A stretch of 64,000 nucleotides of DNA from Erythrobacter sp. YJ-T3-07. Its GTDB lineage: Bacteria > Pseudomonadota > Alphaproteobacteria > Sphingomonadales > Sphingomonadaceae. The translations under genes and the position numbers were made by a program. The notes under the pieces are model-generated. The model worked only from the letters and a program-made list of their open reading frames with translations. It was not told the origin of the DNA and searched no databases. Positions 39,726-62,962 of the stretch are shown here, in pieces; within the stretch, counting starts at the first letter, position 1, and every line of letters begins with the position of its first letter. The DNA is taken from assembly GCF_015999305.1 (NCBI RefSeq), contig NZ_JAEAGP010000001.1:2693001-2757000 (forward strand), given 5' to 3'.

Positions 39726-40178
39726 TCACCGGGGCGGAAGCTGGAGGACCGTGGGTGCGGCTGCGGCACGCGGTGCGGGGATCGCACGCGCCGCGCACAG
39801 GTCATCCGCCTCGCGCTGTTCCGCGCGCGATTGCTGCCGCCGATGGCCGGTGCGAAACGCCTCTGCGGCATTTTCCAGCACGTGCTGCGAGCCATAGGCG
39901 TCGATCGCTTCGCGGCGCAGGCGGCCGATCTGTTCCGATACCACGACGCGCTGCGCCATCAGGTCGGCCTGCTGCGACATCCTGCGGCGAACGAAGGCCT
40001 CGGCAGACGCAGCCCAGCTCTGCGCGCAAACCTCGTACTCGCGCGCCAGCTCTTCCTCCAGCGCACGGCTCTGCTGGTCGATCTCCGTGAGCCGGGTCGT
40101 TTCCATGTGAATGGCGATGCGGGTGCGGTCGATTTCCCGCCGCCGCATCCGCAGGACGGTGTCGAAGGGCGTCTTCAT
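39726..40178 (-). CDS. fliJ: Flagellar export chaperone FliJ-like coiled-coil protein
   Basis: A 150-residue, charged, largely helical protein (MKTPFDTVLRMRRREIDRTRIAIHMETTRLTEIDQQSRALEEELAREYE...) fitting FliJ in size, coiled-coil make-up and place right after fliI (ATGA overlap). FliJ links the ATPase ring to the export gate. Sequence identity in this family is low, so the call relies partly on position. Confidence 0.75.
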   Translation of the reverse strand: MKTPFDTVLRMRRREIDRTRIAIHMETTRLTEIDQQSRALEEELAREYEVCAQSWAASAEAFVRRRMSQQADLMAQRVVVSEQIGRLRREAIDAYGSQHVLENAAEAFRTGHRRQQSRAEQREADDLCAARAIPAPRAAAAPTVLQLPPR

Positions 40179-41503
40179 CGCGAAGTCTCCGTCATCAGTT
40201 CGGCAAGCCGGGCGAAGCTGTGGGCCACCGATCCGCGATCGTCCTTGCGCTGCTTCAGCAGGTCCTCGATCGCCGGGGCGAGGCGGATTGCTTCGTCCAC
40301 CTCCGCATCCGAGCCGGTCTTGTAGGCACCCAGCCGGACGAGTTCTTCCATGTCGGCATAGTTGGAGAGGTGCCTCAGCGCCGCGAGGCGCAGCCGGTTC
40401 TCCTCCTCCTCGTGGCAGTCGGGCAGCATGCGCGAGACCGACTTGAGAATGTCGATCGCAGGGAAGCGGCCACGCTCGGCAATCTTGCGCGACATGACGA
40501 TGTGGCCATCCAGAATGCCGCGCACCGCGTCGGCGATCGGCTCGTCGTGATCGTCGCCGTCGACCAGCACGCTGAACAGACCGGTGATCGACCCCTGTCC
40601 GGGCCCACCCGGCCCCGCCCGTTCGAGCAACCTCGGCAATTCGGCAAAGACGGTTGGCGTATATCCCTTGGTCGCAGGGGGCTCGCCATTGGCGAGGCCG
40701 ATCTCCCGCTGCGCCATGGCAAAGCGGGTGACCGAATCCATCAGGCACATGACGTCGCGCCCGGCGTCACGGAAATGCTCCGCGATGGCGAGCGTGGTCC
40801 ACGCCGCCTGACGGCGCATGAGGGCCGGTGAATCGGAGGTCGCGACGACAACGACGCTGCGCGCCAGACCTTCCGGCCCCAGATCGTCCTCGATGAATTC
40901 CTGAACTTCGCGGCCACGCTCGCCGATCAGGCCGATCACCGCGATATCGGTTTCGACCCAGCGCGCCAGCATCGAGAGCAGGGTCGACTTGCCTACGCCC
41001 GAGCCTGCGAACAGGCCGAGCCGCTGGCCCCGGCAAAGCGGCGCGAACAGGTCGAGCGAGCGGACCCCCGTCTCCAGCCTGCGGCCCACGCGGGTGCGGT
41101 TGGCAGCGGCAGGCGGGTCGGACTTGAACAGACGCGGTTCCGGGCCGACGGGCAGCGGCCCCTTGTTGTCGATCGGCCGACCCAGCCCGTCCACTACCCG
41201 GCCCAGCCACTGGTCCGTCGGGCGCAGCACCGACTGGCCCTGCAACAGGTCCGCCCGGGTTCCGGTGGCGATCCCGTGCGGATCGTTGAACGACAGGCAG
41301 TGAGCGGTCTCCCGGTCGAGTCCGGTGACCTCCGCATCCACGGTTCCGCCCTCGCACTCGATCGCAATACGCGACCCGATGCGGGCGGAGCCGAGCAGAC
41401 CGTCGATCTCGATCAGCGCGCCGCGTACTGCGGCGACGGAACCGAAGTGCCGATCGGTCGGGAACGCGCGGATCGCCCGCGCGGCGGAGGCCAGCGTCTG
41501 CAT
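40175..41503 (-). CDS. fliI: Flagellum-specific ATPase FliI
   Basis: A 442-residue F1-beta-like ATPase that energises flagellar export. Walker A LFAGSGVGKSTLLSML near residue 165; GLIGERGREVQEFIEDDLG; the Walker B strand DVMCLMDSVTRFAMAQREIGLANGEPPATKGYTPTVF. It follows flbT by 10 bases and overlaps fliJ. Complete. Confidence 0.96.
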   Translation of the reverse strand: MQTLASAARAIRAFPTDRHFGSVAAVRGALIEIDGLLGSARIGSRIAIECEGGTVDAEVTGLDRETAHCLSFNDPHGIATGTRADLLQGQSVLRPTDQWLGRVVDGLGRPIDNKGPLPVGPEPRLFKSDPPAAANRTRVGRRLETGVRSLDLFAPLCRGQRLGLFAGSGVGKSTLLSMLARWVETDIAVIGLIGERGREVQEFIEDDLGPEGLARSVVVVATSDSPALMRRQAAWTTLAIAEHFRDAGRDVMCLMDSVTRFAMAQREIGLANGEPPATKGYTPTVFAELPRLLERAGPGGPGQGSITGLFSVLVDGDDHDEPIADAVRGILDGHIVMSRKIAERGRFPAIDILKSVSRMLPDCHEEEENRLRLAALRHLSNYADMEELVRLGAYKTGSDAEVDEAIRLAPAIEDLLKQRKDDRGSVAHSFARLAELMTETSR

Positions 41504-43430: not shown

Positions 43431-45527
43431 ATGTCGCTGAGCAATATCCTGGGATCGGCGGTGTCCGGCCTTGCGGCATCGCAGGCCGGCATCAAATCGA
43501 TATCCAACAACATCGCCAACATCAGTACGCCGGGATACGCGCGCGAGCGCGTATCCCTGAGTACCGGTGTAACCCAGGGCCGTATCAACGGGGTCGTGAT
43601 CGGCGAGCCTACCCGGATTGCCGACCGGTTTCTGGAACAGACGGTCTATCTTCGCGCGGGCGATATGGGCCGGGCGGAGGTGACCGCGAATTACATGGAA
43701 CGGCTGCAGTCGTTCCTGGGCGAGCCGGGGGCCGAAAGCGGTCTTCCCGCGCGCCTCGATGCGATCAGCGCATCCGCGATCGCTCTGACGAGCGGGCAAA
43801 GCTCGCCCCAGAAGGCATCGAACTTCATTGCCGAGGTGCAGGATGCGATCGGCTCCATCCGCCAGCTCGACGACGATATTCAGGTGCTGCGCGGCGATGT
43901 TGAATCAGAAGTCGGCTATTCGATAGAAGCGGTCAACGTCCTGCTCGAACGTATCCATACGCTGAACGCCACGGTGGCCCAGCTTCGCGGCCTCGGCCGC
44001 ACCGCCGGCGGGGCCGAGGATCAGCGCATGTCCGCGCTCGAAGAGCTGAGCGGGCTGATGAAAGTCTCGATCCGCGAACAGCCCGATGGCCGGGTCAATA
44101 TCGACGCGGCCAATGGCGCAGTCCTGCTCGACGGGCGGCTGCGGCAATTGTCATACCCCAGTCCGGGCGACGGGGTCGCGCAGCCGACCTACCCCGTGAT
44201 CGACATTCGCTTCACCAATGATGCAGGCGAGCCGACCACCGCCACGGGGGAAAAGCTGGAATCCTCCGCCATAGGGGGCAAGCTGGGCGGATTGCTCGAT
44301 CTGCGCGATCGCGCATTGCCGGAATTCTCCGACCAGCTCGGCTCGCTATTCGGCGGTCTTGCAGAAACCATCAATGCGGTGGCCAACTCGGGCACGTCCT
44401 ACCCGCCGCCCAACCGGCTCGACGGCAGGCCGACCGGCCTGATCGGCAGCGACCGACTGGGCTTCACCGGGCAGGCCACCTTCGCGGTTACCGACAAGAG
44501 CGGCACGCTGGTCGCCAGCACCACCGTCGATTTCGACGCTTTGGGTCCGCTGGCTACGCTCGACGATGCGGTCGCCGCGATCAATGGCGGCCTCGGCGGC
44601 AACGCCACGGTCGCCCTGCAGGACGGGCGCCTCTCCTTTGTCGCGGCAAGCGGCAATAATGGTGTGGCGGTGGCGCAGGGCGATCCGCCGAGCGCGCGCG
44701 CAGGCAACGGCTTCTCGCATTACTTCGGCCTCAACGACGTCATCCGCAGCGATTCCGCGACGCTTGTCGCGCCTGGGTTCGTCGCCAGCGATCCGCACGG
44801 GTTCGCTGCGGGGCAATCCACGCAGCTGGTCCTGCGCGATGCCACCGGTCGCTCTCTCGCGACCACCACGCTGACGGGCTCGGTCGGTCCCACTTTCGGC
44901 GATCTGGTCACCGAACTGGGCCAGAGCCCGCTCGCCGCGTTCGGCACTTTTGCGATGGACGACCGTGGCCGGATGACTTTCACGCCCTCTCCGGGCGCGA
45001 GCGGTGCGGTGCTCTCTATCCCCTCGGATTCGACCGACCGCTTCGGCACCGGCGTATCCTTCACCGCCCTTTCCGGCCTGACCGGCAGTGCCAGCGGGCT
45101 CGGCGGGGCGGGCGTACGGGCCGATATTCTGGCCAGTGCAGACAGGCTGCCGCTGTCCCGCCTGCGGACCGACGCCGCAGTTGGCGAGTCAGCGCTGGGC
45201 GGCGGCGACACGCGGGTGGCCGGTGCCTTCGTCGAGGCGCTGGGCAAGCCGATCGACTTCGGCAAGGCGGGCTCCGCCACGATGGAGCGTTTCTCCAGCC
45301 TGCTGATGGGACGCGCCGGAACCCAGGCTGCGCGGGCCCAGGACATGCTGGTGGATGCCGCTGCACGCCGGGACGACGCGATCAACCGCCGCGACAGCTT
45401 CTCGGGCGTCAATCTCGATGAGGAACTGTCGCAGATGGTGGTCCTCCAGAACAGCTATTCCGCCGCCGCGCGCGTCATGACGACCGCCACGCAGATGTAC
45501 GACACTCTCCTCGATATGGTCCGCTGA
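43431..45527 (+). CDS. flgK: Flagellar hook-associated protein 1 (FlgK)
   Basis: A 698-residue hook-filament junction protein: MSLSNILGSAVSGLAASQAGIKSISNNIANISTPGYARERVSLST at the start and SGVNLDEELSQMVVLQNSYSAAARVMTTATQMYDTLLDMVR at the end, both HAP1 marks. The middle is variable, as usual. 27 bases after flgE. Confidence 0.95.
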   Translation: MSLSNILGSAVSGLAASQAGIKSISNNIANISTPGYARERVSLSTGVTQGRINGVVIGEPTRIADRFLEQTVYLRAGDMGRAEVTANYMERLQSFLGEPGAESGLPARLDAISASAIALTSGQSSPQKASNFIAEVQDAIGSIRQLDDDIQVLRGDVESEVGYSIEAVNVLLERIHTLNATVAQLRGLGRTAGGAEDQRMSALEELSGLMKVSIREQPDGRVNIDAANGAVLLDGRLRQLSYPSPGDGVAQPTYPVIDIRFTNDAGEPTTATGEKLESSAIGGKLGGLLDLRDRALPEFSDQLGSLFGGLAETINAVANSGTSYPPPNRLDGRPTGLIGSDRLGFTGQATFAVTDKSGTLVASTTVDFDALGPLATLDDAVAAINGGLGGNATVALQDGRLSFVAASGNNGVAVAQGDPPSARAGNGFSHYFGLNDVIRSDSATLVAPGFVASDPHGFAAGQSTQLVLRDATGRSLATTTLTGSVGPTFGDLVTELGQSPLAAFGTFAMDDRGRMTFTPSPGASGAVLSIPSDSTDRFGTGVSFTALSGLTGSASGLGGAGVRADILASADRLPLSRLRTDAAVGESALGGGDTRVAGAFVEALGKPIDFGKAGSATMERFSSLLMGRAGTQAARAQDMLVDAAARRDDAINRRDSFSGVNLDEELSQMVVLQNSYSAAARVMTTATQMYDTLLDMVR

Positions 45528-45538
45528 AAGGTCCCACA

Positions 45539-46444
45539 ATGAACCGGGTTGCCACCATTCCCCTGCAGCGCACGATGGCGGACGCCATCCAGCGCGCGCA
45601 GCAAAACCTCGCCAAGACGCAGACCGCTCTTTCCACGGGCAAGAAGGCGCAGGATTACGCCAGCCTGGGCACGGAAGCCGTACGCACGATGTCGGCGCGC
45701 TCCATGCTCGCCAAGCAGGACGCGCAGGCAGTCGTCTCCAAACACGTGACCACCACGCTTGCCATCTACGACGCGCATGTCACCGGTCTCGACAACTCTC
45801 TGATCGACCTGCGTACCCGGATGACGACAGCGATCGGGACCGACGATTCCGCGGGCCTGCAGGAAACGATCAAGGGTGCGTTCGAACAGTTCCGCAGCAC
45901 CCTCAATGCCAAGGAAGGCGGCATCCCGCTGTTCGGCGGCTCGCGCACCGATGTGCTGCCCTTCACCCCGGAAAGTCTGGCCGATGTGGCCGCCACGCCG
46001 GCCGCCGACGCGTTCCTGAACGATGACGTGCGGGCCGTCGCCCATCTCGCGGAAGGGACTTCGGTGACCTACGGCATCATCGCGAGCGATCTCGGCACCG
46101 AGATCTACGAGGCGTTTCGCACGCTGGCTGCCGCCGGTCCGATCGGAGAGCGGCTGACCGACGCGCAGAAAACCGCCCTGCAGGACGCACTCGCGCAGAT
46201 CGACACGGCCGCTGTGGGACTGCGCGCCGTAAACGCAGAGAATGGCCGCAAGCAGTCACGCGTGGAAACTCTGGGCGAGCGTGCGGAACAGCGATCGCTG
46301 GTGCTCAACGACATCATCGCCGCCAACGAAGACGCGGATCTGGGTCAGGTGGCGGTGGACCTGGCGCAGCAGAAGGCCACGCTGGAGGCGAGCTATTCCG
46401 TCTTCGCTCAGCTCACCCAGCTCAATCTCACCAAATACCTCTAA
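45539..46444 (+). CDS. flgL: Flagellar hook-associated protein 3 (FlgL)
   Basis: A 301-residue flagellin-like HAP3: IPLQRTMADAIQRAQQNLAKTQTALSTGKKAQDYASLG near the start and LGQVAVDLAQQKATLEASYSVFAQLTQLNLTKYL at the end. 11 bases after flgK; last gene of this plus-strand run. Confidence 0.92.
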   Translation: MNRVATIPLQRTMADAIQRAQQNLAKTQTALSTGKKAQDYASLGTEAVRTMSARSMLAKQDAQAVVSKHVTTTLAIYDAHVTGLDNSLIDLRTRMTTAIGTDDSAGLQETIKGAFEQFRSTLNAKEGGIPLFGGSRTDVLPFTPESLADVAATPAADAFLNDDVRAVAHLAEGTSVTYGIIASDLGTEIYEAFRTLAAAGPIGERLTDAQKTALQDALAQIDTAAVGLRAVNAENGRKQSRVETLGERAEQRSLVLNDIIAANEDADLGQVAVDLAQQKATLEASYSVFAQLTQLNLTKYL

Positions 46445-48408: not shown

Positions 48409-48415
48409 CTGTATG

Positions 48416-49818: not shown

Positions 49819-50435
49819 GCTGCTTCCTTGACGGGGGTGCGTTGCGCGGAGGTCTTGCGCGACGGGCGCGCCGGAGCCTTTTTGGTCGCGGCAACTTTCA
49901 GCGCGGGGTCCGCGCCGGTTGCCTTCGGAGTGATCGCCTTTGCAGCCGTCGGCTTCGCGCTGCTGCCCTTCGCGCCGGAAGCCTTCGCAATCGATGCCTT
50001 TGCATTGGCGCTCTTGCCCGCCTTGGGCGCATCCGCCTTGGGCTGCGCAGCCTTCGTGGTGCGAGAACGCACCGGACGGGTCGCCTTGGCCCGAACGGAG
50101 GCAGCTTCGGCTTCATGACGCGACACGCTGGCCGCGGCCTCGATCAGGCGTTCCGCCATCGCATTGGCGATGCCGATCATGACGTTCAGCTCTTCGCGCA
50201 CCTCACGGGCATCGCCCAGGATCCGCGCATGTGCCGATCCATCGGTCACGAGCGTCTGCCTGAGTTCGGAAAGCACGCCCTGCGCCTTCGCCGTCGCGGT
50301 ATCGAGCGCGCCGACCGTGCGGTCGAGCTGGTTCTCGCGAACATCCTTGAGGCTGCGCATCATCCGCACGCTCTGAATGAGCACCGCGATGCAGAAGAGG
50401 ACCGTGATGACATTGGTGAAGACGGTGAAGCTCAT
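49815..50435 (-). CDS. DUF6468 flagellar-locus membrane protein
   Basis: A 206-residue protein with an N-terminal helix (VFTNVITVLFCIAVLIQSVRMM), a helical domain (LDTATAKAQGVLSELRQTLVTDG...VREELNVMIGIANAMAERLIEAA) and an Ala/Lys/Pro-rich tail of about 100 residues. DUF6468 proteins are found between fliM and motE in alphaproteobacteria. Overlaps fliM upstream and motE downstream. Function unknown. Confidence 0.72.
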   Translation of the reverse strand: MSFTVFTNVITVLFCIAVLIQSVRMMRSLKDVRENQLDRTVGALDTATAKAQGVLSELRQTLVTDGSAHARILGDAREVREELNVMIGIANAMAERLIEAAASVSRHEAEAASVRAKATRPVRSRTTKAAQPKADAPKAGKSANAKASIAKASGAKGSSAKPTAAKAITPKATGADPALKVAATKKAPARPSRKTSAQRTPVKEAA

Positions 50436-51451
50436 TGCGATTGACCCTGTTTGATGGTGTCGACGATGCCGATGGCGACGTGGTTGCGCTGGCGACCGAT
50501 CTGCGCGCGGGCGATCGGTACGCCCCCGCAGCAGACCTCGAAGGGATCGTCGGGAGTGACGTCGAAGGGGATGGTCTGGCCGACTTCCAGCGAGTGGACG
50601 TCGGCAAGGCGCATCTCCCGCTCGCCAAGGACGGTGTAGATTTCGACCTCGGTCCGCATGATCTCGTTGCGCATGTGATCGCGCCAGGTGTTATCGCCGC
50701 CCAGCTTTTCACCCATGAAGCGCTGCGACAGCTTGCCCCGCACCGGCTCGAGCGTGGCGAACGGCAGCAGAATGGTGAAATTGCCGCCGCGCCCGTCCAT
50801 ATCGACCGCGAAGGTCGCGGCAGAGGCAACGTTGGTCGGCCCGGCAATGGCGGCGAAGCGCGGGCTGGTCTCGATCCGTTCAAGCTCCATCGTGATCGGC
50901 GCGATCGGTTCGAACGCGGTGCTGAATTCGCGCAACACCAGTTCGATCATCTTCGATACCAGCGTGGTCTCGATCGTGGTGAAGGCGCGCCCTTCGATCT
51001 TGCGCGGGGCAGCGCCCTTGCGGCCGCCCAGCAGCGCATCGACCACCGCATAGATCAGGTTCGCCTCGATCGTGACGAGGCCGTAATCCTGCCACGCGGG
51101 CACCTTGAACACGGCGAGCATGCAGGGCAGCGGAACGCGGTTCATGAAGTCGCCGAAGCGGACCGATGCAATATCGTCGAGCGAGACCTCGATCGCGTCC
51201 GAGGTAAGGTTGCGCATGCTGGTGGCGAAGGAGCGGACCATGCGTTCGCACACCACCTCCAGCATCGGCAGCCGGGCATGGCTGACGACGCGGGATTCGA
51301 TCACCGCACGCAGGCCACTCTTTTGCGGCAGGTCCGAGCTGGAATCGCCGAACAGCGCATCGATGCTGGCCTGGTCGAACGTCGCCCCCTCCGGCATGTC
51401 CATTGCCGGGGGATCGGGAAGTTCGAGTTCTTCGAAATCGTCGTCCATCAC
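50432..51451 (-). CDS. fliM: Flagellar motor switch protein FliM
   Basis: A 339-residue C-ring protein. The CheY-binding N-terminal part carries DQASIDALFG (usual motif LSQ.EIDALL), then the middle CheC-like domain (IEVSLDDIASVRFGDFMNRVPLPCMLAVFKV, LGGRKGAAPRKIEGRAFTTIE) and the C-terminal SpoA domain (LGEREMRLADVHSLEVGQTIPFD). It overlaps both fliL and the DUF6468 gene. Confidence 0.94.
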   Translation of the reverse strand: MMDDDFEELELPDPPAMDMPEGATFDQASIDALFGDSSSDLPQKSGLRAVIESRVVSHARLPMLEVVCERMVRSFATSMRNLTSDAIEVSLDDIASVRFGDFMNRVPLPCMLAVFKVPAWQDYGLVTIEANLIYAVVDALLGGRKGAAPRKIEGRAFTTIETTLVSKMIELVLREFSTAFEPIAPITMELERIETSPRFAAIAGPTNVASAATFAVDMDGRGGNFTILLPFATLEPVRGKLSQRFMGEKLGGDNTWRDHMRNEIMRTEVEIYTVLGEREMRLADVHSLEVGQTIPFDVTPDDPFEVCCGGVPIARAQIGRQRNHVAIGIVDTIKQGQSQ

Positions 51452-51999
51452 TGCTGAACCATGTCCTGGATGAGAACGTCGGCAACCACGCCTTCGCCCA
51501 CGGTGTCTGCCGCGCGCAAAAGCAGCTCTTCCTTAAGGCGGTAGACCGCCGCCGATCCGGCCAGATCTTCCGGACGCAGTTCGCGCAGGAACGGCTGGTA
51601 GCGGTCGATGATCATCGGCATGCTCGCTTCGATCGTGCCTGCATCCTCGGGCGAGCCGGGGACCATGAGAATTCGCAGCTTCAGGAACCGGGCCTGGCCG
51701 TCATTGGTGCGCAGGTTGACCATCATCGGATCGACCTCGACCATCCCGCCACCGTCCTTTTCGCCGTGGCCGCCACCCGATTTCTCGCCGTGGCCGGCCT
51801 CCTTCTTGGCGTCCCCGCCCGAATGATCGCCGGACTCCTTGGCCTCGGCATCGCCGCCGCCGCCCATAAGAAAGGCCCCGGCACCACCGCCGACCAGCAG
51901 CACAGCGCCCGCCGCGGCAATGATCTTTTTCTTCTTGGAAAAGCGCGGCGGCTTTGCGCCCTCTTCAGGCTTGGCCTCGTCCTGCGTCTCGGTGGTCAT
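51448..51999 (-). CDS. fliL: Flagellar basal body-associated protein FliL
   Basis: A 183-residue protein: cytoplasmic Lys-rich start, one helix (KKIIAAAGAVLLVGGGAGAFLMGG), a Gly/His/Lys-rich linker with GEKSGGGHGEKDGGG repeats, and the FliL domain (VDPMMVNLRTNDGQARFLKLRILMVP...LKEELLLRAADTVGEGVVADVLIQDMVQQ). ATG 51999 (MTTETQDEAK). First gene of fliL-fliM-DUF6468-motE, divergent from flgF. Confidence 0.9.
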   Translation of the reverse strand: MTTETQDEAKPEEGAKPPRFSKKKKIIAAAGAVLLVGGGAGAFLMGGGGDAEAKESGDHSGGDAKKEAGHGEKSGGGHGEKDGGGMVEVDPMMVNLRTNDGQARFLKLRILMVPGSPEDAGTIEASMPMIIDRYQPFLRELRPEDLAGSAAVYRLKEELLLRAADTVGEGVVADVLIQDMVQQ

Positions 52000-52056
52000 G
52001 GCTCGAATGCCTTTCTTTACCAAAAGCCGGCGGTCGAAACGTCGGCGGTGATTTTC

Positions 52057-52069
52057 TCCTATTATAGGA
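52057..52069. promoter_or_regulatory. TCCTATTATAGGA palindrome in the fliL/flgF gap
   Basis: A perfect palindrome (TCCTA-TTA-TAGGA) between divergent fliL (58 bases) and flgF (65 bases). Its minus-strand decamer CCTATAATAG is identical to that at 48691-48700. Confidence 0.65.
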
Positions 52070-52133
52070 TCGTCACCCGGCAAGATTTGCCCAGTGGCGA
52101 TTTTCGAAGCAGTTTTTTCGGAGCGGCAAGCCG

Positions 52134-52880
52134 ATGGATATTTCCTCATACGTTCTGCTCAGCCAGGAACAGGCGCTGAGGCGACGGATGGACATCGTCG
52201 CCAATAATCTGGCCAACACCTCGACCGTCGGCTTTCGCCGCGAACAGCCCATGTTCCGCGAATATGTGGAGCGCGCAGACGAGGCGATCATCGACGATGC
52301 GAAGCCGACCTCTTTCGTGCTCGACTTCCGCGCGATCCACGACATGACGCCCGGCGCATTCCAGCCGACCGGCAATCCGCTCGACGTGATGATCGAGGGG
52401 CCGGGCTATCTCGCGGTCGAACTGCCCGATGGAGCCGGCACGGCCTACACGCGCGCGGGCTTCGTCAGCATTCTGGAGACCGGCGAACTCGCCACCGCAG
52501 GCGGCCAGCGCCTGCTCGACGAAGGCGGGCAGCCGATCGTGGTGCCGCCCGAAGAGGTCGGCCGCGTCTCGATCGCCGCCGATGGCAGCGTAATGGGCGC
52601 GAACGGAGCGCTCGGACGATTGGCAGTCACCGTATTCGACGACGAAACCGGCCTCGCCCCCAAGGGCGACGGGCTTTACGCCGGTGCAGAAGGCCGCGTG
52701 CTTCCCGCCGAGGAAACCAAATTTCGCAGCGGCGGCGTCGAGGGGTCCAACGTCCAGCCGATCGTGGAGACCACCGCGATGATCGACATCCTGCGCTCCT
52801 ACCAGAACAGCGTGCGGATGACCGAAAGCCTCAACGACATGCGCAAGCGTGCGCTCGACCGGCTCGGCCGCGTCGGCTGA
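52134..52880 (+). CDS. flgF: Flagellar proximal rod protein FlgF
   Basis: A 248-residue rod protein: VLLSQEQALRRRMDIVANNLANTSTVGFRREQPMFREY and, at the C-terminus, GGVEGSNVQPIVETTAMIDILRSYQNSVRMTESLNDM. The length and the neighbour flgG separate it from FlgG. Heads flgF-flgG-flgA-flgH. Confidence 0.93.
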   Translation: MDISSYVLLSQEQALRRRMDIVANNLANTSTVGFRREQPMFREYVERADEAIIDDAKPTSFVLDFRAIHDMTPGAFQPTGNPLDVMIEGPGYLAVELPDGAGTAYTRAGFVSILETGELATAGGQRLLDEGGQPIVVPPEEVGRVSIAADGSVMGANGALGRLAVTVFDDETGLAPKGDGLYAGAEGRVLPAEETKFRSGGVEGSNVQPIVETTAMIDILRSYQNSVRMTESLNDMRKRALDRLGRVG

Positions 52881-52920
52881 TCGCCCTCACCCAGACAATA
52901 TCGAAGAAGGATAGAAAATC

Positions 52921-53706
52921 ATGCGTTCGCTCTCGATCGCCGGCACCGGCATGCTTGCTCAGCAGACCAATGTCGACGTCATCTCCAACAACATCGCCAA
53001 TATGAACACCACCGGGTTCAAGCGTCAGCGCGCCCAGTTCCAGGATCTGCTCTATCAGCAGGTCTCGCGCCCCGGTGCCTCTTCCGCCGGACCCGAGGCG
53101 CGGGCACCCACGGGCATCCAGATTGGCGCAGGCGTGCGCACCGGCGGCGTCTATCGCATCGCCGAACAGGGCGCGCTGGTCCAGACCGACAACCGCTTCG
53201 ACCTGGCGATTCAGGGCCTTGGCTATTTCCAGGTCCAGATGCCGACCGGCGAGATCGGCTATACCCGCGACGGCACCTTCCAGCTGTCCGACCAGGGCGA
53301 GCTGGTCACCTCGCAGGGCCTCGTCGTGGAGCCGGGAATCACCATTCCGCAGGGCGCGGTCGATGTCGCGGTGTCGCGCACGGGCGAGGTCCAGATCAAG
53401 ATCGCCGGCGAGACCGAGATGCAGACCGTCGGCCAGATCGAACTCGCCACCTTCGTCAACGAGGCCGGGCTGGAAGCCAAGGGCGACAACCTGTTCCTCG
53501 CCACCGCAGCCTCGGGCGAGCCGACCATCGCCGCGCCGGGCGAGCCCGGCTTCGGCAGCGTGGCGCAGGGTTTCGTCGAAGCCTCCAATGTCAATCCGGT
53601 GGCGGAAATCACCGCGCTCATCACCGCGCAGCGCGCCTATGAGATGAACAGCCGGGTGGTGAAGACCGCCGACGAAATGCTCGGCACGACGAGCCAGCTG
53701 CGCTGA
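52921..53706 (+). CDS. flgG: Flagellar distal rod protein FlgG
   Basis: A 261-residue rod protein with MRSLSIAGTGMLAQQTNVDVISNNIANMNTTGFKRQRAQFQDLLYQ, the conserved GYFQVQMPTGEIGYTRDGTFQLSDQGELVTSQG and QGFVEASNVNPVAEITALITAQRAYEMNSRVVKTADEML. Its stop overlaps the flgA start (TGATG). Confidence 0.96.
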   Translation: MRSLSIAGTGMLAQQTNVDVISNNIANMNTTGFKRQRAQFQDLLYQQVSRPGASSAGPEARAPTGIQIGAGVRTGGVYRIAEQGALVQTDNRFDLAIQGLGYFQVQMPTGEIGYTRDGTFQLSDQGELVTSQGLVVEPGITIPQGAVDVAVSRTGEVQIKIAGETEMQTVGQIELATFVNEAGLEAKGDNLFLATAASGEPTIAAPGEPGFGSVAQGFVEASNVNPVAEITALITAQRAYEMNSRVVKTADEMLGTTSQLR

Positions 53707-54176
53707 TGGCCCGCCGGTTTTTGCTCACCGCCCCGCTGCTCGCCGGGCTGGCGCTGCTGCCATGCGGCGCGCTCCATGCCCAGAGCGCGGCCGATGGTGC
53801 CATGGCAGACGTTCTCACCCGCCCGATCCAGCGCGGCGACCTGCTGTCGGAACGCGACTTCGCGCCCGAGGAAGTCACCGCAGCGCTGGCCCGGGGCAGC
53901 CTCTCGGCGCAGCAGGCTGCGGGCATGGAGGCGCGGCGCACGCTGCGTGCCGGGCAGCCGGTGCGCGCGAGCGACCTGGCCGAGCCGCGCCTCGTCAAAC
54001 GGGGCGAGACGGTCAAGATCAGCGTCCGCGAAGGCGCGCTGACGATCACCGCCATGGGCCGCGCGCTGGGCGATGCAGCGCTGGGCGAACAGGTGCGCGT
54101 CTTCAGCGAAGCCACCAACCAGACGCTTCAGGGCGTGGTCGAAGACGCGGGCACCGTCCGTGTGCTCGCCCCCTGA
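53706..54176 (+). CDS. flgA: P-ring assembly chaperone FlgA
   Basis: A 156-residue periplasmic protein with a signal peptide (RRFLLTAPLLAGLALLPCGALHAQS) and a short SAF-type domain: DLLSERDFAPEEV, GMEARRTLRAGQPVRASDLAEPRLVKRGETVKISVREGALTITAMGRALGDAALGEQVRVFS. At this length it lacks the N-terminal domain of longer FlgA proteins. Its target FlgI is not encoded in the window. Confidence 0.9.
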   Translation: MARRFLLTAPLLAGLALLPCGALHAQSAADGAMADVLTRPIQRGDLLSERDFAPEEVTAALARGSLSAQQAAGMEARRTLRAGQPVRASDLAEPRLVKRGETVKISVREGALTITAMGRALGDAALGEQVRVFSEATNQTLQGVVEDAGTVRVLAP

Positions 54177-54198
54177 TCCGCAAGCCAAGGAAATGAAG

Positions 54199-54978
54199 AT
54201 GAAGAAAGTCGTCACGATCGCCGTCACGGCGTCGCTGCTGTCGGGTTGCGGCTCGATCGACCGCCTCAAGAATGTCGGCAAGGCACCGGCCATGTCGCCG
54301 GTAGACGCCTACACCGCCCCCGCATACGAGCCGTCGATCGCGAGCACGGACCCCGTCCGGATGCGCGGAACCGTGCCGACCGCGCCCATCCCGCAAGGTC
54401 CGGCCCAGGCCCAGGCCCAAGCTCAGACCCAAGTCCCCAACGCCTCGCTGTTCCGCGCAGGTGCGGGCGAGCTGTTTCAGGACCAGCGTGCCTCGCGCGT
54501 GGGCGACATCCTGACGGTCGAGATCAACATCGCCGACAAGGCCGAGTTCGGCAATTCGACCTCGCGTTCGCGGAGTGGCTCGGAGAGCATGGGCATCGGC
54601 GCGCTGCTCGGCCTGCAGGACCTGCTCCCGGGCAACCCTGCCCAGGCGGTCGATGCGACGTCGAACTCGGCCTCGGGCGGCCAGGGGCGCACCACCCGCA
54701 GCGAGACGATCAACATGACGATGGCGGCGATCGTCACCGATGTGCTGCCCAACGGCAATCTGGTGATCCGCGGACGTCAGGAGATGCGCGTCAATTTCGA
54801 GCTGCGCGAACTGATCGTCACCGGCATCGTGCGGCCGCAGGACATCGCCAAGGGCAACACGATCCAGCACGGCAAGATCGCCGAGGCGCGGATCAGCTAT
54901 GGTGGTCGCGGCCAGCTAACCGACGTGCAGCAGGCGCGCTGGGGCCAGCAGATCTACGAAGCGCTGTTCCCGTTCTGA
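54199..54978 (+). CDS. flgH: Flagellar L-ring lipoprotein FlgH
   Basis: A 259-residue outer-membrane L-ring protein with a lipoprotein signal (MKKVVTIAVTASLLSGCGS; lipobox LLSGC), a Gln/Ala repeat (AQAQAQAQTQ) and the FlgH core SLFRAGAGELFQDQRASRVGDILTVEINI, TDVLPNGNLVIRGRQEMRVNFELRELIVTGIVRPQDI, ISYGGRG. ATG 54199 is chosen over 54193 because AAGGA then stands 7 bases away. Confidence 0.93.
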   Translation: MKKVVTIAVTASLLSGCGSIDRLKNVGKAPAMSPVDAYTAPAYEPSIASTDPVRMRGTVPTAPIPQGPAQAQAQAQTQVPNASLFRAGAGELFQDQRASRVGDILTVEINIADKAEFGNSTSRSRSGSESMGIGALLGLQDLLPGNPAQAVDATSNSASGGQGRTTRSETINMTMAAIVTDVLPNGNLVIRGRQEMRVNFELRELIVTGIVRPQDIAKGNTIQHGKIAEARISYGGRGQLTDVQQARWGQQIYEALFPF

Positions 54979-55142: not shown

Positions 55143-55970
55143 ATGGCGTTCTCAGTCAATACCAATGTCGGCGCAATGGCGGCCCTGCAGAGCCTGAACC
55201 AGACCAACAAGGGTCTGTCGCAGGTTCAGAGCCGTATCAATACCGGCCTGAACGTCGCATCGACCAAGGACGATTCGGCATCGTTCACGATTGCGCAGTC
55301 TCTCCGCGGCGACGTGGGTGGTCTCTCGGCGGTCAATTCCTCGCTCAACCGGGGTAAGAGCACCGTCGATGTGGCGATTGCGGGTGCGGAGCAGATCTCC
55401 GACGTCCTCAATCAGATGAAGGCAAAGGCCATTCAGGCGTCGGATGACGGTCTGGATGCTGAAAGCCGTACCGCGATCAACGCCGACTACACGGCTCTGA
55501 AGGAGCAGATCACCACGATCATCGCTTCGTCGGAGTTCAACGGCACGAACCTGCTGAAGGATGACGCAACCTCGACCGGTAAGGTTTCCGCGCTGCAGTC
55601 GCTCGATACCACGAGCACGATCGGCGTGGCCAACCAGGCCTTCGAGACCAACGTCACCACCGCCCTTGGCACCGGTCTCGGCACCAAAGCCGATGCCGAT
55701 ACTGCACTGACCGAAATCGCCACCGTGACCTCCACGGTGACGTCGACGCTGAGCACTCTGGGTTCGGCTTCGCGCAAGATCGAAGGGCAGCTGTCGTTCA
55801 ACAGCAAGCTGTCCGACGTGATCGAGAGCGGTATCGGCAACCTCGTCGATGCCGATCTGGCCAAGGAATCGGCCAAGCTGCAGGCCCTGCAGGTCAAGCA
55901 GCAGCTGGGTGTCCAGGCTCTGTCGATCGCCAACCAGGCGCCGCAGACGATCACTTCGCTCTTCCGTTAA
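55143..55970 (+). CDS. fliC: Flagellin
   Basis: A 275-residue short flagellin having mostly the conserved D0/D1 parts: MAFSVNTNVGAMAALQSLNQTNKGLSQVQSRINTGLNVASTKDDSA and LAKESAKLQALQVKQQLGVQALSIANQAPQTITSLFR. AAGGA stands just before ATG 55143. A 164-base leader separates it from flgH, and two hairpins follow. FlbT, encoded in this locus, is a candidate regulator of its mRNA. The only flagellin gene in the window. Confidence 0.95.
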   Translation: MAFSVNTNVGAMAALQSLNQTNKGLSQVQSRINTGLNVASTKDDSASFTIAQSLRGDVGGLSAVNSSLNRGKSTVDVAIAGAEQISDVLNQMKAKAIQASDDGLDAESRTAINADYTALKEQITTIIASSEFNGTNLLKDDATSTGKVSALQSLDTTSTIGVANQAFETNVTTALGTGLGTKADADTALTEIATVTSTVTSTLSTLGSASRKIEGQLSFNSKLSDVIESGIGNLVDADLAKESAKLQALQVKQQLGVQALSIANQAPQTITSLFR

Positions 55971-56884: not shown

Positions 56885-57547
56885 TTAACCCGTGACCACG
56901 CGGGCCAGCACGGTTGAGGGGAAGTTCAGGCCGTTGATGCCCAGCAACACCGCCCCATTGCGCGTGACCACCTCGTCGATGATGCCCGTGCTGCGAATAT
57001 CGACGGGCACTTCCTGCCCTGCTGCGTCCACGCCGCTGAGCGAGAGCGAATAGGCGCCCTCCGGCGCCGTATCGCCGGAGGCGAGCGAACCGTCCCAGAC
57101 GAAGCTGCCAGCGGTCGCCGGATCGAGCTCGCGCGTCTCGACCACCCGCCCGCGTGCATCGGTAATCGTCGCGGTCAGGCTCTGGATCGGGCGATCTGCG
57201 TGCCACGCCCACTGCGCAGGCGTTTCGGCGGAGAGGCCGGCCGTGCTGCTGTCGAGCTCGGCACGCTGCCCCAGGAAATTCGCCGACTGGGCGAGATCCT
57301 GCGTCGACAGCGCAGAGAGAATGTCCTTCAGCGCAGCAGTCTGCTGGATCGACTGCTCGACCTGCGAATACTGCGTCAGCTGCTGGGTATATTCGGAGGT
57401 TTCCATCGGATCGAGCGGATCCTGGTTCTGCATCTGCGTGGTCAGCAGTTTCAGGAACATGTCGAAATTGGCGTTGAGCTCGGCTCCCGCCGCACCGCCG
57501 GCGCCATTGCCCGGCACGCCGGACGTCATCGAGGAAATTACTGTCAT
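56885..57547 (-). CDS. flgD: Flagellar hook cap protein FlgD
   Basis: A 220-residue hook scaffold protein: NANFDMFLKLLTTQMQNQDPLDPMETSEYTQQLTQYSQVEQSIQQTAALKDIL is the FlgD N-terminal signature, and GSFVWDGSLASGDTAPEGAYSLSLSGVDAAG is the FlgD Ig-like part. 10 bases after fliK. Confidence 0.95.
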   Translation of the reverse strand: MTVISSMTSGVPGNGAGGAAGAELNANFDMFLKLLTTQMQNQDPLDPMETSEYTQQLTQYSQVEQSIQQTAALKDILSALSTQDLAQSANFLGQRAELDSSTAGLSAETPAQWAWHADRPIQSLTATITDARGRVVETRELDPATAGSFVWDGSLASGDTAPEGAYSLSLSGVDAAGQEVPVDIRSTGIIDEVVTRNGAVLLGINGLNFPSTVLARVVTG

Positions 57548-57557
57548 GTCTTGGTCC

Positions 57558-59063
57558 TCAAGCGAAGAGATCTAGGCTTCCGCTACCGAGGCGCTTCGCG
57601 CGCGCTGGCTGCGCGCCGTCATCGGCTTCGGCTTCGGATTGTGCGGTGTTCGCACCGGAAGGATTTTCGGCGCGGTTCTGCTGGCCCTGCTGGTCGCTGC
57701 GGCCTTGGCTGCGCGCCTCGAACTGGAAGGATTGGCCATCGGTGCGCACACCTGCATCGCCCAGCGCACGGGCGAGATCGCCACTATCGCGCCGCAGCAT
57801 ATCCAGCGCCGCGGCGCTCTCTGCGGTCACATGCGCACGCATCGTGCCCTTGTCGTCGAACTGCAGGCGGATGTGAATCTCGCCCATTTCCGCCGGATCG
57901 AGGCGGATGGTGAGGCTGTCGCGACCATCGCGGGTGTACCGGGCGATTTCGACGCCAAGTTCACGCCCGATCTCGCCCGGCCGCGCGGAGACGGTTCCGG
58001 GCACCGATCCGGCGTGTTTGACCGTGTCGAGAGCCGGCTTGGCAGGGTCGAGGCGTGTCTGGGCGAGCATGTCCGCCGTGCCATCCCCGCCTTCACTCGC
58101 AGGGGCGGCGGCATCTGCGCCATTGTCTTTGACGAGCTGGGCAAAGTCGCGGGTGCTGCCGTTGTCGGATGCCTGGGCCGCCGTGGAGCGGGGCGCAGCG
58201 GCATCGGGTGCCTGGCGAGCGTCACGAGCGGACACCGAAATCTTGCTGTCGTCCTGAGCAATATCGTCCGCCGTGGGTTCATCCGAAACCACAGAAGGAT
58301 GCCGCGCAGGGGGCGCAGGGACCGCCTCGACCATGCCATCTGCGGGCATCGCCACAACGACCCCATCCGCCGTCTCCGGCATATCATCCGCGCTTGGGAC
58401 GACGTCGGGATCGCTTTCGGGCTGATCGACCGGCACAGGCCCAGCATCCGTCTGAACGGGCGCTTGTTCGATCGCGCTGTCGGCATTTTCACCGACGGGT
58501 GTGGCGGGCTGTTCGAGAGCCTGCTCGGGCGTTGCCTGCACAATCGGGTCTGGACGAGCGGGGTTGGGCTGCGAGACGGGCGCCACATCGCGCGCCTGCT
58601 CATCCGGCGCGGTCGCGGGGCTGTCCCCCTCGGCCACGACGCCCGGCGATGTCGGCAGGCCCTCGTCGTCCCCCGAAGGCTGGAGGTCGGCAAGCTGGAT
58701 GGCGCTCTGCCCCGGATTATCGCCGAGCGGCGCATCGACCCGCTGGTCAGACACGTCCGCCGCCACGGTGGTCGCCACCGGCGGCATCGCGGGATCGGGC
58801 ATCAAGGTCTGGCCCGCCATGCCGGACGCAGCGGCGAGCTGGCCCGGGATCATCCCGGGGCGCGCGAGCTGCTGGCTGCCGTCGAGGATCATGCCCGGCG
58901 TGTTGCGCAGGCCTGCAAATCCGGTGAGCTGCGTTGCCTGCTGCGACGAAGGCGCAGTCAGCAGTGCCGCGAAGGAGGGGCCTTGCGAAGGGAATGGGGT
59001 GGCGCCCCCAGACAATCCAGAAGGGGAGCTGTTGCCGGGAACAAGCGAGAGGAGTTGGGTCAT
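57558..59063 (-). CDS. fliK: Flagellar hook-length control protein FliK
   Basis: A 501-residue protein with a long, disordered Ala/Pro/Asp-rich N-terminal part and a C-terminal hook-length domain: IGRELGVEIARYTRDGRDSLTIRLDPAEMGEIHIRLQFDDKGTMRAHVTAESAAALDMLRRDSGDLARALGDAG, matching FliK. ATG 59063 follows AAAGGA. Its own CTATAAT box stands in the 53-base gap after the flhA remnant, so fliK-flgD does not depend on flhA transcription. Confidence 0.9.
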   Translation of the reverse strand: MTQLLSLVPGNSSPSGLSGGATPFPSQGPSFAALLTAPSSQQATQLTGFAGLRNTPGMILDGSQQLARPGMIPGQLAAASGMAGQTLMPDPAMPPVATTVAADVSDQRVDAPLGDNPGQSAIQLADLQPSGDDEGLPTSPGVVAEGDSPATAPDEQARDVAPVSQPNPARPDPIVQATPEQALEQPATPVGENADSAIEQAPVQTDAGPVPVDQPESDPDVVPSADDMPETADGVVVAMPADGMVEAVPAPPARHPSVVSDEPTADDIAQDDSKISVSARDARQAPDAAAPRSTAAQASDNGSTRDFAQLVKDNGADAAAPASEGGDGTADMLAQTRLDPAKPALDTVKHAGSVPGTVSARPGEIGRELGVEIARYTRDGRDSLTIRLDPAEMGEIHIRLQFDDKGTMRAHVTAESAAALDMLRRDSGDLARALGDAGVRTDGQSFQFEARSQGRSDQQGQQNRAENPSGANTAQSEAEADDGAQPARAKRLGSGSLDLFA

Positions 59064-59116: not shown

Positions 59117-60124
59117 TCAGGGCGCTTCGAGCACATTTTGTTGGCCGATGCTGCCGACCGAGCGGACCCGGGTGCGCGGATGGATCTCGTTTTGCGAGAG
59201 AACCACGGTTGCCGGGCGCACCCGTTCGATGATCGAGCGCACGAACGGGCGGATCGACGGGCTGACCAGGAGGCAGGGAATCTCGTTCCTCGCGGCCAGC
59301 GTGTCGTAGAGTTCGCGCACCTGGGTGATGAAGCGCTGCAGGTTCGACGGCGCCATCGCGAGGTGACGTTCGTCCCCCTCCCCGATGATGCTCTCGGCAA
59401 ATTGCTGGTCCCAGTCGGGCGACAGGGTAAGGATCGGGATGTAGCCGTCGCGGGTCTGCTGGGCGGAAATCTGCCGGGCCAGCCGGGCGCGGACGTGCTC
59501 GGTGATCTGGGTCAGGTTCTGGGTCAGCGGAGCGGTCTCCGCGATCGCTTCCAGAATGGTCGCCATGTCGCGCACGGAGACCCCTTCGGCGAGCAGGTTC
59601 TGGAGGATCCGCTGGATGCCCGAGATGCTGATCTTCGCAGGGACCAGATCGGCGACCAGTTTCTCCGCGTCGGTATGCACCTCGTTCAGCAGTTTCTGCG
59701 TTTCGGTGTAGGACAGAAGCTCGGCGATATTGTCCTTCACCAGTTCCGCCAGATGGGTGGTGACGATGGTGCCGCAGTCGACCACGGTCAGATTGCGCAG
59801 GCCCGCTTCGTCGCGCAGTTCGCGATCGATCCACAGCGCGGGCAGGCCGAACACCGGCTCCTGCGCAGGATCGCCCGGCAGGCCGACATCGCCGCCGCCC
59901 GGATTGATGACCATCAGCTTGTCGAGCCGCAGCTCGCCCGCCGCGACCTCGGTCTCTCGGATGAAGACGCGATAGTCGTGTGCGCCCAGCCCCATATTGT
60001 CGATGATCCGCACCGCAGGCAGCACGAAACCGTAATCGGTCGCCATCTGGCGGCGCAGCGCGCGCACCTGATCGTCGAGCCGCGGCTCCGCCCCGGTCTG
60101 GTCGATAAGTGTTTGCGTTAGGAA
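59117..60124 (-). pseudogene. flhA: flhA remnant, N-terminal half missing
   Basis: FlhA is the main export-gate protein, about 700 residues, with eight membrane helices in its N-terminal half and a cytoplasmic ring domain after. Here only about 335 codons remain: from about 60106 LIDQTGAEPRLDDQVRALRRQMATDYGFVLPAVRIIDNMGLGAHDYRVFIRETEVAAGELRLDKLMVINP through LSQNEIHPRTRVRSVGSIGQQ, a good match to the FlhA cytoplasmic domain. No membrane segment is present. The frame is open only from 60124; just before it is a stop codon that closes an integrase fragment in the same frame. No plausible start or ribosome site was found near the break, though an internal ATG lies at 60046. The gene has been cut and cannot give a working gate by itself. 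Confidence 0.88.
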
Positions 60125-60274
60125 TCATCGGAAGAAAACCGAGGCCAAAAGCGCACCTTTGCAGGCCAGATTTTGTGGCCGCTCGGCGATACGTGGGTGC
60201 GAACCACGGCTGTCTCTGACCATGTAAGCCTCGTCTCGTACGGCTGCCGCTCGCACCGCCTTGTCCGTCACCAT
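60125..60274 (-). pseudogene. Tyrosine integrase N-terminal fragment next to tRNA-Ser
   Basis: A 49-codon fragment beginning MVTDKAVRAAAVRDEAYMVRDSRG, which matches the arm-binding (DUF4102-type) start of genomic-island tyrosine integrases (consensus LTDxAVRxAKPRxKxYxLxDxxGL). The preceding CTGGGGTATTGGATG is also like the leader of such genes. Similarity fades after about residue 32 and a TGA ends the frame at 60125. The core and catalytic domains are missing. With tRNA-Ser 128 bases away, this is the classic tRNA-int arrangement, now decayed. Confidence 0.75.
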
Positions 60275-60402
60275 CCAATACCCCAGTCAGATCGGTTCGT
60301 TGGCCCAATGACCCGCACTCGCATTCAGCTGGGGTGTGGGTGGCGTCGGACAGCGCAGGAGCCGTAAATGGCGGACGGTATCGGATCGGCCGGAAAGGCC
60401 CG

Positions 60403-60493
60403 TGGCGGAGCGGGAGGGATTCGAACCCTCGATACGGGGTTACCGTATACACACTTTCCAGGCGTGCGCCTTCGACCACTCGGCCACCGCTCC
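60403..60493 (-). tRNA. tRNA-Ser (anticodon GGA), CCA encoded
   Basis: A class II tRNA of 91 bases including CCA. Acceptor GGAGCGG pairs with CCGCTCC, the discriminator is G, the D arm starts TGGCCGAGTGG, the anticodon loop CTGGAAA gives GGA, there is a long variable arm, and the T loop is TTCGAAT. The 3' end faces the integrase fragment and flhA remnant, as expected for an integration target. Confidence 0.96.
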
Positions 60494-60575
60494 GCATCGC
60501 CCGTTCGGGAAGGGTGCGCACCTAGCTGCGTTCCGTGCGCTTCGCAAGACGCGGATGCTCCGCTAGGCACCGGGC

Positions 60576-60980
60576 ATGAGAGAATTCGGACTTCCCGTGA
60601 CGCTGAACGAGATGGAAGCGCTTGGCCGGGCGGCGATCGCCGCGCTTCCGCAGGCTTTTGCCGAACAGCTGGGCGATGTCGTGTTCGCGGTAGAGGACTT
60701 CGCCGATGAGGAGACCCTGCGCGAGCTGGGAATGGAAGATCCCTTCGAACTGACCGGGGTCTACGAGGGCCACGCGCTGACCGAGCGGAGCATCGAGATG
60801 TCGGGCACGCTGCCCACCCGCATCCGCCTGTTCCGCCGCCCAATCCTCGACGAATGGGCAGAACGCGGCGATGAGACTCTGGAGCACCTGGTGCGCCATG
60901 TCGTGATCCACGAGATCGGCCATCACTTCGGCCTCTCGGACGACGACATGCACGCGCTGGAGGACATGGCCGACCGCTAA
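60576..60980 (+). CDS. Metallopeptidase family protein (HExxH, DUF1025 type)
   Basis: A 134-residue minimal zincin-like protein with HEIGHHFGLSDDDMHALE, the HExxHxxGLSDxDM pattern of this family. It begins MREFGLPVTLNEMEALGRAAIAALP. Activity has not been shown widely for the family. It stands alone after tRNA-Ser. Confidence 0.88.
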   Translation: MREFGLPVTLNEMEALGRAAIAALPQAFAEQLGDVVFAVEDFADEETLRELGMEDPFELTGVYEGHALTERSIEMSGTLPTRIRLFRRPILDEWAERGDETLEHLVRHVVIHEIGHHFGLSDDDMHALEDMADR

Positions 60981-61083
60981 ATTTGCGTCTGGCATTGCAG
61001 GGAGCATCGCAAGGACGCAATCTGGGGCGGCGATGCGCTCCGCTCCGGATTGTTTCGCGATGCTCGCCATGAGGGGGAAGCCA

Positions 61084-62073
61084 ATGCGTATTCTTTTTGC
61101 CGCCACTGCCGCTCTCGCGCTCGCCACTGCCGCGTTCGCGCAAGAAGTCGAGGCGCCCCCGCCTTCGCCGGGCGAGATCGTAAGCTCGGCGCCCACCGAT
61201 GACTGGATTGCGATCGATCCGGAGAACCTCGTGGTGATGACGCTGCCCCCGCTCGACAACGGGACCGAGCGCAGGATCGTGATGCAGCTGATCGGCGCGC
61301 CGTTCAGCCAGGGCTGGGTCGCGAACATCCGCACGCTCGCCCGCGCGAAGTACTGGGACGGCAGCCAGATCCTGCGGGTGCAGGACAATTACGTGGTCCA
61401 GTGGGGCCAGCCCGACCCCGAGATGGGGGTCGAGCCCAAGCCCGTGCCCGAGGGACTGAAGGTGATGGCCGAGGGCGAGTATACTGCCGGATCGCCCAAC
61501 TGGCTCACCGGGCCGGTGCTGCAGGCCAAGCGCCAGCCGCAGGTGTTCGAGGACTGGCCCGCCCCGATGATGACCGACGCCTACGCCGATTTCGCAAGCT
61601 TCCGTGACGGCTGGCCGATTGCCGGCGTGCAGGGGATGCATCTGGCACGCCAGTGGCCGGTCCACTGCTACGGGATGGTCGGCGTGGGTCGCAACATGTC
61701 GCCCGATACCGGCGACGGATCGCAGCTCTACACCGTGATCGGCCACGCGCCGCGCCATCTCGACCGCAATATCGCGGTCGTGGGCCGGATCGTGGAAGGG
61801 ATAGAGCACCTCTCCAGCCTGCCGCGTGGCACCGGCCCGCTCGGCTTCTACGAGGAGGAGAGCAAGCGCGTGCCGATCGTCTCGGTGCGCATGGCAGCCG
61901 ATCTGCCCGAGAGCGAGCGGCCCCGCTTCGAATACCTCTCCACCGCGAGCGAGAGCTTCGCGCGCTATGCCGATGCGCGCGCCAACCGGCGCGATCCGTT
62001 CTTCATCCAGCCTGCCGGCGGGGCGGACGTCTGCAATATCCCGGTGCCCGTGCGCAGGACGGACGCCGAGTGA
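61084..62073 (+). CDS. Cyclophilin-type peptidyl-prolyl isomerase, periplasmic
   Basis: A 329-residue protein with a signal peptide (MRILFAATAALALATAAFAQE) and a cyclophilin-like domain carrying insertions: IVMQLIGAPFSQGWVANIRTLARAKYWDGSQILRVQDNYVVQWG, MVGVGRNMSPDTGDGSQLYTVIGHAPRHLDRNIAVVGRIVEGIEHLSSLP. The usual Arg-Phe-Gln active site is altered, so catalysis may be weak. Overlaps the GNAT gene by GTGA. Confidence 0.82.
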   Translation: MRILFAATAALALATAAFAQEVEAPPPSPGEIVSSAPTDDWIAIDPENLVVMTLPPLDNGTERRIVMQLIGAPFSQGWVANIRTLARAKYWDGSQILRVQDNYVVQWGQPDPEMGVEPKPVPEGLKVMAEGEYTAGSPNWLTGPVLQAKRQPQVFEDWPAPMMTDAYADFASFRDGWPIAGVQGMHLARQWPVHCYGMVGVGRNMSPDTGDGSQLYTVIGHAPRHLDRNIAVVGRIVEGIEHLSSLPRGTGPLGFYEEESKRVPIVSVRMAADLPESERPRFEYLSTASESFARYADARANRRDPFFIQPAGGADVCNIPVPVRRTDAE

Positions 62074-62603: not shown

Positions 62604-62962
62604 ACCTTCTGCATGAATTCGAGCCGGTTGCCGAAAGGGTCGGCGGTGAAGAAACGACGGTAGCCTGCAACCGGCTTGTCGTCGCGGCAGGCGATACCGG
62701 CCTGTTCAAGCCGCACGCGCATGACGTCCAGATCGCTGGTGAGGAACGCGGGATGCGCCTTTGTTGCGGGGCGGAAATCTGGGTCGATACCCACATGCAG
62801 CGCGACCTCGCCCGCCGCGAACCAGCAGCCCTGGGGCGAGAGCGTGTCGGGCTTTGGCACCTCGCGCATGCCGATCAGATCGACGAAGAAGGCGCGCGCG
62901 CGATCCTCGCCGCCTTTGGGGATGGCCAGTTGAACGTGATCATAGGCCAGCAACTCGGTCAT
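62600..62962 (-). CDS. VOC/glyoxalase family protein
   Basis: A 120-residue VOC-fold protein: MTELLAYDHVQLAIPKGGEDRARAFFVDLIGMREVPKP, GEVALHVGIDPDFRPATKAHPAFL, FFTADPFGNRLEFMQKV. ATG 62962 overlaps the stop of the RelA/SpoT gene (ATGA), so it is co-translated with it. Function unknown. Confidence 0.87.
   Translation of the reverse strand: MTELLAYDHVQLAIPKGGEDRARAFFVDLIGMREVPKPDTLSPQGCWFAAGEVALHVGIDPDFRPATKAHPAFLTSDLDVMRVRLEQAGIACRDDKPVAGYRRFFTADPFGNRLEFMQKV

Follow-up and report, generated by a model that had tools for sequence, protein, structure and literature searches.

Erythrobacter sp. YJ-T3-07 is a marine bacterium with two flagellar gene sets, one of which apparently lost a large piece not long ago. 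Our reading, to which sequence comparison leads us to assign a probability of roughly 0.86, is that a recent deletion ran from a decaying island integrase into the flhA gene of one set (system II) and left there a remnant that should be non-functional, with the other set (system I) remaining. The window, by which we mean the whole 64,000-nucleotide stretch analysed, would contain the edge of an accessory flagellar cluster, system II, next to tRNA-Ser(GGA), an insertion site of integrase-bearing islands. One deletion, or a short series, would have reached from inside the integrase to codon ~372 of flhA-II, taking with it the remainder of the island along with the che/mot, export-gate and basal-body genes, and the ends would have been joined imprecisely with ~62 bp of filler, that is, without long homology. 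We regard the case as real but fairly ordinary gene loss and as a good example of a known process. A second flagellar system is apparently being lost as the first stays, and its break points are not the same in the two close relatives concerned; in live strains one could study the purpose of the second flagellum and the pace at which orphaned flagellar genes decay. Two warnings for annotation follow: a working flagellum cannot be read from intact flagellar genes in a window, nor a lack of motility from a broken flhA.

The flhA fragment and its junction with tRNA-Ser(GGA)

The flhA-II frame is open over 335 codons (window 59117-60124, minus strand), and the longest ORF with a start codon in it begins at a GTG and encodes 316 aa (59117-60067). 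As the sequence-only reading had stated, only the cytoplasmic half of the gene is left: the product matches Pfam FHIPEP over positions 349-655 of 657 (E 9e-87) and TIGR01398 (FlhA) over positions 364-678 of 678, the latter below the cut-off that the model sets for full-length proteins. FlhA-C chains in the PDB match it with E values down to 8e-57, and query residues 16-327 align to residues 80-387 of the chain in the FlhA-C crystal structure 3a5i. The fragment clearly represents the C-terminal portion of FlhA and has its cytoplasmic domain, but it lacks the N-terminal membrane half (~350 residues) through which FlhA belongs to the export gate; in the window the frame stops at a TGA at 60125.

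Table 1. Features of system II and of the junction, in window coordinates
Feature	Position	Strand	Remark
fliI-II, retained	40175..41503	-	NCBIfam FliI_clade3, above cut-off
flgK-II, retained	43431..45527	+	TIGR02492
flgL-like hook-associated protein/flagellin, retained	45539..46444	+	below curated cut-offs
fliM-II, retained	50432..51451	-	TIGR01397
fliL-II, retained	51448..52149	-	below curated cut-offs
flgF-II, retained	52134..52880	+	FlgEFG subfamily model above cut-off, flgF models below
flgG-II, retained	52921..53706	+	TIGR02488
flgA-II, retained	53706..54176	+	TIGR03170
flgH-II, retained	54073..54978	+	NF001305; true start probably within this ORF
flagellin gene fliC-II, retained	55143..55970	+	below curated cut-offs
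flgD-II, retained	56885..57547	-	below curated cut-offs
fliK-II, retained	57558..59063	-	weak match; 501 aa, against 508-539 aa in four relatives
flhA-II fragment, cytoplasmic half of FlhA	59117..60095	-	homology to the 701-codon flhA of relatives begins at ~FlhA residue 372
junction filler, ~62 bp	60096..60157	.	no convincing match found
49-codon open frame, integrase N-terminus at its start, TGA at its end	60125..60274	-	integrase homology exits the frame after ~25 codons
integrase-gene remnant and its upstream region	60158..60375	-	homologues next to tRNA-Ser (G004, G009) and at further loci
31 bp across tRNA 3' end	60394..60424	.	exact copy in G009 at C6:361072-361102
tRNA-Ser(GGA), candidate island insertion point	60403..60493	-	3' end faces the break

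Beyond the fragment, the window, which is free of any N, runs through the filler and a frameshifted integrase N-terminus to tRNA-Ser(GGA), whose orientation was given correctly in the first description. Homology to flhA stops at 60091-60095 and homology to the integrase starts at ~60158. When the filler was compared with 298 genomes of the family, matches outside the window's own genome (G000) started at query position 64 at the earliest, which corresponds to window 60153. A BLAST search with word size 7 against the fetched loci returned short matches at chance level only, and alignment to four related integrases collapses across the filler.

The translation of the 60125-60274 frame reads MVTDKAVRAAAVRDEAYMV..., and residues 10-38 (29 residues) of the integrase of the genus-mate G004 align to it at 72% identity (E 3e-7, in a small set of loci). 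Because integrase homology goes on in another frame after these residues, the frame is a frameshifted remnant; searched alone, the 50-aa piece gave no Pfam match. The window thus holds an arm-binding integrase N-terminus adjoining a tRNA 3' end, and the catalytic C-terminal domain was not found in it, homology ending at ~60158. The earlier proposal that an integrase N-terminus lies directly against flhA therefore stands as to the integrase, but not as to the contact, since the filler lies between the two and the remnant is frameshifted.

This arrangement resembles integrase-bearing islands at tRNA 3' ends, in that a distance of 129 bp separates the integrase start codon from the 3' end of tRNA-Ser, with the gene reading away from the tRNA. 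The same tRNA carries in G009 a 437-aa integrase of the window's family (Arm-DNA-bind_3 and Phage_int_M above cut-offs, Phage_integrase just below) together with a repeat of the tRNA end 37 kb away, whose 31 bp are identical to the window's tRNA end; against G009's own tRNA the last 22 bp are identical, with 85% identity over 72 bp. This repeat (C6:361072-361102) is likely, to judge from its sequence, to be the far end of an island. The window differs from such islands in keeping the frameshifted N-terminal remnant only, and searches of G000 reported no further exact copy of the 31 bp, giving just imperfect matches at other places. A different integrase of 410 aa stands at tRNA-Ser in G001, and G007 has a decayed integrase copy beside its own tRNA. 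Elsewhere in G000 (C1:1201262-1201625) another tRNA-Ser-like match adjoins an integrase-like match, perhaps a second island site.

Retained genes and the second flagellar cluster

Eighteen retained frames between 37 and 60 kb of the window, including the flhA fragment and some unnamed genes, have lengths near those of their counterparts in four relatives (G001, G004, G009 and G008); fliK-II is the shortest in G000 of the five carriers compared. The suggestion of a broken flagellar system whose remaining genes look intact consequently holds for this cluster. FliF, FliG, the FlhA/FlhB/FliP/FliR gate and FlgI of system II were not found in G000, where only their system I paralogues occur, and because FliF, FliG, FlhB, FliP and FlgI are missing we infer that what remains of system II is a non-functional remnant, intact as far as its sequence goes. 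Also lying among the retained flagellar genes, window 46510-48597 encodes a 695-aa protein with weak TPR matches only, belonging to no named flagellar family and having relatives in the same four genomes. Within window 49246-54978 the G000 genes at 49246 and 49815, flgA and flgH diverge more than their neighbours, possibly through recombination; the product of the gene at 49815 has 63-67% amino-acid identity to those of G001, G004 and G009, and flgG has 100%.

A second flagellar cluster, system I, was located in G000 at C1 ~600-632 kb, and each of the 20 products tested from it matched a flagellar family: FlhA (full), FliR, FliQ, FliP, FliN, FliM (weakly), FliI, FliG, FliF, FliE, FlhB, FlgI, FlgH, FlgG, FlgF, FlgE, FlgB, FlgK (truncated where the fetched sequence stops), FliC and MotA. 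The set lacking from system II (FliF, FliG, FlhA/FlhB/FliP/FliR and FlgI) is present here, some members below equivalog cut-offs; the products falling below them include FlhA, FlhB, FliG, FliQ and FlgH. FlgD, FlgL, FliK, FliL and MotB of system I were named by eye only, and FlgC was not identified in the cluster. The sequence-only reading had implied that, FlhA being essential, export and motility must be lost. This implication is not supported, since system I, with full FlhA, FlhB, FliPQR, FliF, FliG and FliN, is present; with a complete flhA in this cluster, motility need not be lost, and the strain may be motile although system II cannot be expected to work. If motile, it would depend on system I, whose presence would make system II dispensable.

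The locus in genus-mates and the search for the missing DNA

Ten genomes of the genus, the window's own included, were compared. The flhA-II gene is full-length in four of the nine genus-mates (G001, G004, G008 and G009), absent from five, and halved in G000; flhA-I is present in all ten, its product 27-29% identical to the window fragment. In a wider set of 60 genomes including G000, some match was found in 48. An FlhA tree of 55 rows separates the system I and system II proteins of the genus into two clades with full support and groups the fragment with G009, G001, G004 and G008, with Stakelama marina as neighbour. Of 59 locus rows, five did not enter the tree: L008, L026 and L109 as partial and L091 and L092 as duplicates. 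System I FlhA is ruled out as the supplier of the missing N-terminal half by its 28% identity and its separate clade. One of the partial rows, L008, comes from another genus of the family (G015, a genome 86% complete with 7% contamination), where a system-II-type flhA aligns over residues 1-698 and has two internal stop codons.

Comparison at tRNA-Ser(GGA) supported the proposal that a deletion joined an island integrase to flhA. Three genus-mates have a full flhA and, between it and tRNA-Ser, the DNA that is missing from G000: 14 kb in G004, 61 kb in G001 and 101 kb in G009. We infer that such DNA formerly stood in G000 as well and was lost in a single event, with joining that would not have required long homology. 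The G004 sequence follows the window over 31920-60091 in three blocks; 13,975 bp are then skipped, and the alignment picks up again at 60158 in an integrase and covers 60394-64000. The adjacency of flhA-II and tRNA-Ser is not universal, because in G008 the two lie far apart on one 2.75-Mb contig (flhA at 2,648,786, tRNA-Ser at ~26,197). G009 and G001 have in common a 46-kb block (92% identity) in which chemotaxis, mot and flagellar genes were named by eye. All ten proteins of the G009 interval scanned against NCBIfam matched a family; nine are flagellar (FliP, FliR, FlhB, FlgI, FlgB, FliG, FliF, FliN and an FlbD-like regulator, with FlgB, FliG and FlbD below their equivalog cut-offs) and the tenth is an SBBP-repeat protein. 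At the edge of system II in G009 (C6:394048-398279), probable chemotaxis receptor genes contain three copies of ~0.8-1 kb that are 86-88% alike, with related copies in G001 and G008.

Four query stretches from these relatives, 45 kb in total, were searched against the whole G000 assembly (491 contigs, one of 3,074,277 bp and 490 others, 3,315,910 bp in total); 370-390 kb and 324.5-361 kb of G009 lay outside the queries. The 12-kb G004 query, which runs from inside flgI up to where fliK begins, found only the retained part of flhA, the system I flhA at 70% and short matches. G009 390-405 kb (15 kb) and 405-414 kb (9 kb), with che/mot and fliP-fliR-flhB, gave only matches of 65-91% identity and at most 860 bp, and G009 361-370 kb (9 kb) gave only paralogue-level or short matches and the tRNA end. 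No N-terminal half of the flhA-II type exists in the genome; the only one present belongs to system I and is 70% identical in DNA. A search for the FHIPEP family returned two loci, the flhA-II fragment and one full flhA, with no third. The 9-kb putA-like stretch beside the G009 island was considered as a native flank lost in G000; this is not supported, G001 and G004 likewise having only paralogue-level or short DNA matches to it. A 9-kb stretch, 93% identical between G009 (C6:361059-369999) and G003 (C26:458603-467652), adjoins tRNA-Ser in G003 and lies inside the interval in G009.

These searches weigh on two other accounts of the join. The first is that the strain has a whole system II and that the assembler left out the DNA in between and fused its two flanks. 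The odd composition of the assembly, one very large contig and 490 others, would suit such an error, as would the undecayed look of the remnant genes, but the searched stretches are absent from all 491 contigs save for paralogues and short matches, no repeat was seen at the join, and the filler matched nothing else in G000 or in 297 other genomes. The integrase piece at the join is moreover the strain's own degenerate copy, in a window without N, and the single-contig G004 genome shows a similar loss at the same place; we therefore hold an assembly artefact to be improbable. The second account, an inversion or translocation that placed the N-terminal half of flhA and its neighbours elsewhere beside the rest of the integrase, had been raised by the sequence-only reading, and islands at tRNA genes do rearrange. 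Relocation is nevertheless very unlikely, because the 12-, 15- and 9-kb DNA searches gave only paralogue-level or short matches besides the retained flhA and because the FHIPEP loci number only two.

Age of the loss and a second case at the same tRNA

Under the deletion reading the loss looks recent, because the protein encoded by the 316-aa flhA-C ORF is identical to the same part in G001 and G009 despite silent base differences (27/951 and 32/951 bases, respectively, all silent); amino-acid differences number 2/315 to G004 and 14/315 to G008. The identity to the full FlhA-II of G001 and G009 would also be expected if the short FlhA-C were kept for its own use, for instance as a soluble cytoplasmic domain that serves system I or a different exporter, and the fragment does cover most of the domain in the FlhA-C crystal structures (3a5i), but we give this idea scant credence, the fragment lacking both the beginning of that domain and the membrane half, system I FlhA being only 28% identical, and recent loss explaining the identity equally well.

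Selection on the orphaned genes points the same way as the flhA-C comparison. Singleton nonsynonymous/synonymous counts over 18 genes, with G008 as outgroup and the genes at 46510 and 49815 (the latter strongly diverged) left out, were 59/121 in G000, 35/94 in G001, 10/68 in G004 and 14/51 in G009. The G000 ratio does not differ significantly from that of G001 (Fisher p 0.32) and is higher than that of G001, G004 and G009 pooled (59/121 vs 59/213, p 0.012), so relaxation may have gone on for longer. Three flanking non-flagellar genes tilt likewise (41/70 in G000, 6/45 in G001 and 26/51 in G009); five other flanking genes were unused, the relatives' fetched stretches not containing them whole. 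Estimated without outgroup, omega for G000/G001/G009 was 0.13/0.10/0.15 in the 18 genes and 0.19/0.04/0.17 in the three flanking genes. Neutral evolution along the whole branch would be expected to give ~348 nonsynonymous changes in the 18 genes, and the neutral share of the G000 tip branch comes to 4.6%, with an upper bound of 10.3%, if the genes were neutral after the loss. Because the orphaned genes show so little relaxation of selection, the deletion looks recent on the scale of the tip branch, with the proviso that singletons leave room for an effect of recombination.

A second case was found in G004, a single-contig genome. Next to the same tRNA-Ser stands an integrase remnant of 225 aa, and after it comes part of a second-copy biotin-carboxylase gene (75% identity to the native copy at G004 C1:923323), which meets the tail of flhB-II with a 3-bp overlap (C1:997299-998649, L035:17300-18650). 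The fliP-fliR-flhB stretch, present in G001, G008 and G009, is absent from G004 save for a short paralogous match. These observations argue for two events, G004 having probably undergone a separate deletion from the same tRNA-Ser island into flhB-II, because the end points differ, the joins differ, and within the cluster G004 is 97% identical to the uncut G009 (over 13.4 kb) vs ~90-91% to G000. One ancestral deletion common to G000 and G004 is less likely, given end points in flhA and flhB and joins made of filler in one and biotin carboxylase in the other; the losses being nested, one older loss that was later extended would strictly be compatible with them. Beyond the tRNA, G004 is closer to G000 (96.5%), so that recombination blurs the order of splits, and the integrase type does not settle the number of events, because those of G004 and G009 share 84% identity over 527 bp.

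System II is thus cut in two of the five carriers examined, in flhB in G004 and in flhA in G000. On this footing we put forward, tentatively and as somewhat less probable than its opposite, that the tRNA-Ser(GGA) island site may be a repeated start of one-sided deletions into system II, and that islands may drive the loss of one of two flagella in the genus. Each integrase scar would then no longer be excisable, because each deletion would have removed the far side of its island.

Other losses of a redundant second flagellar system are the Flag-2 remnant of many E. coli and the fla1/fla2 systems of Rhodobacter sphaeroides. They resemble the present case in having two divergent flagellar sets per genome, one reduced to a remnant and the other kept; the present case differs in that the loss appears to begin in an island integrase at tRNA-Ser and in that two members of the genus show different break points in the same cluster.
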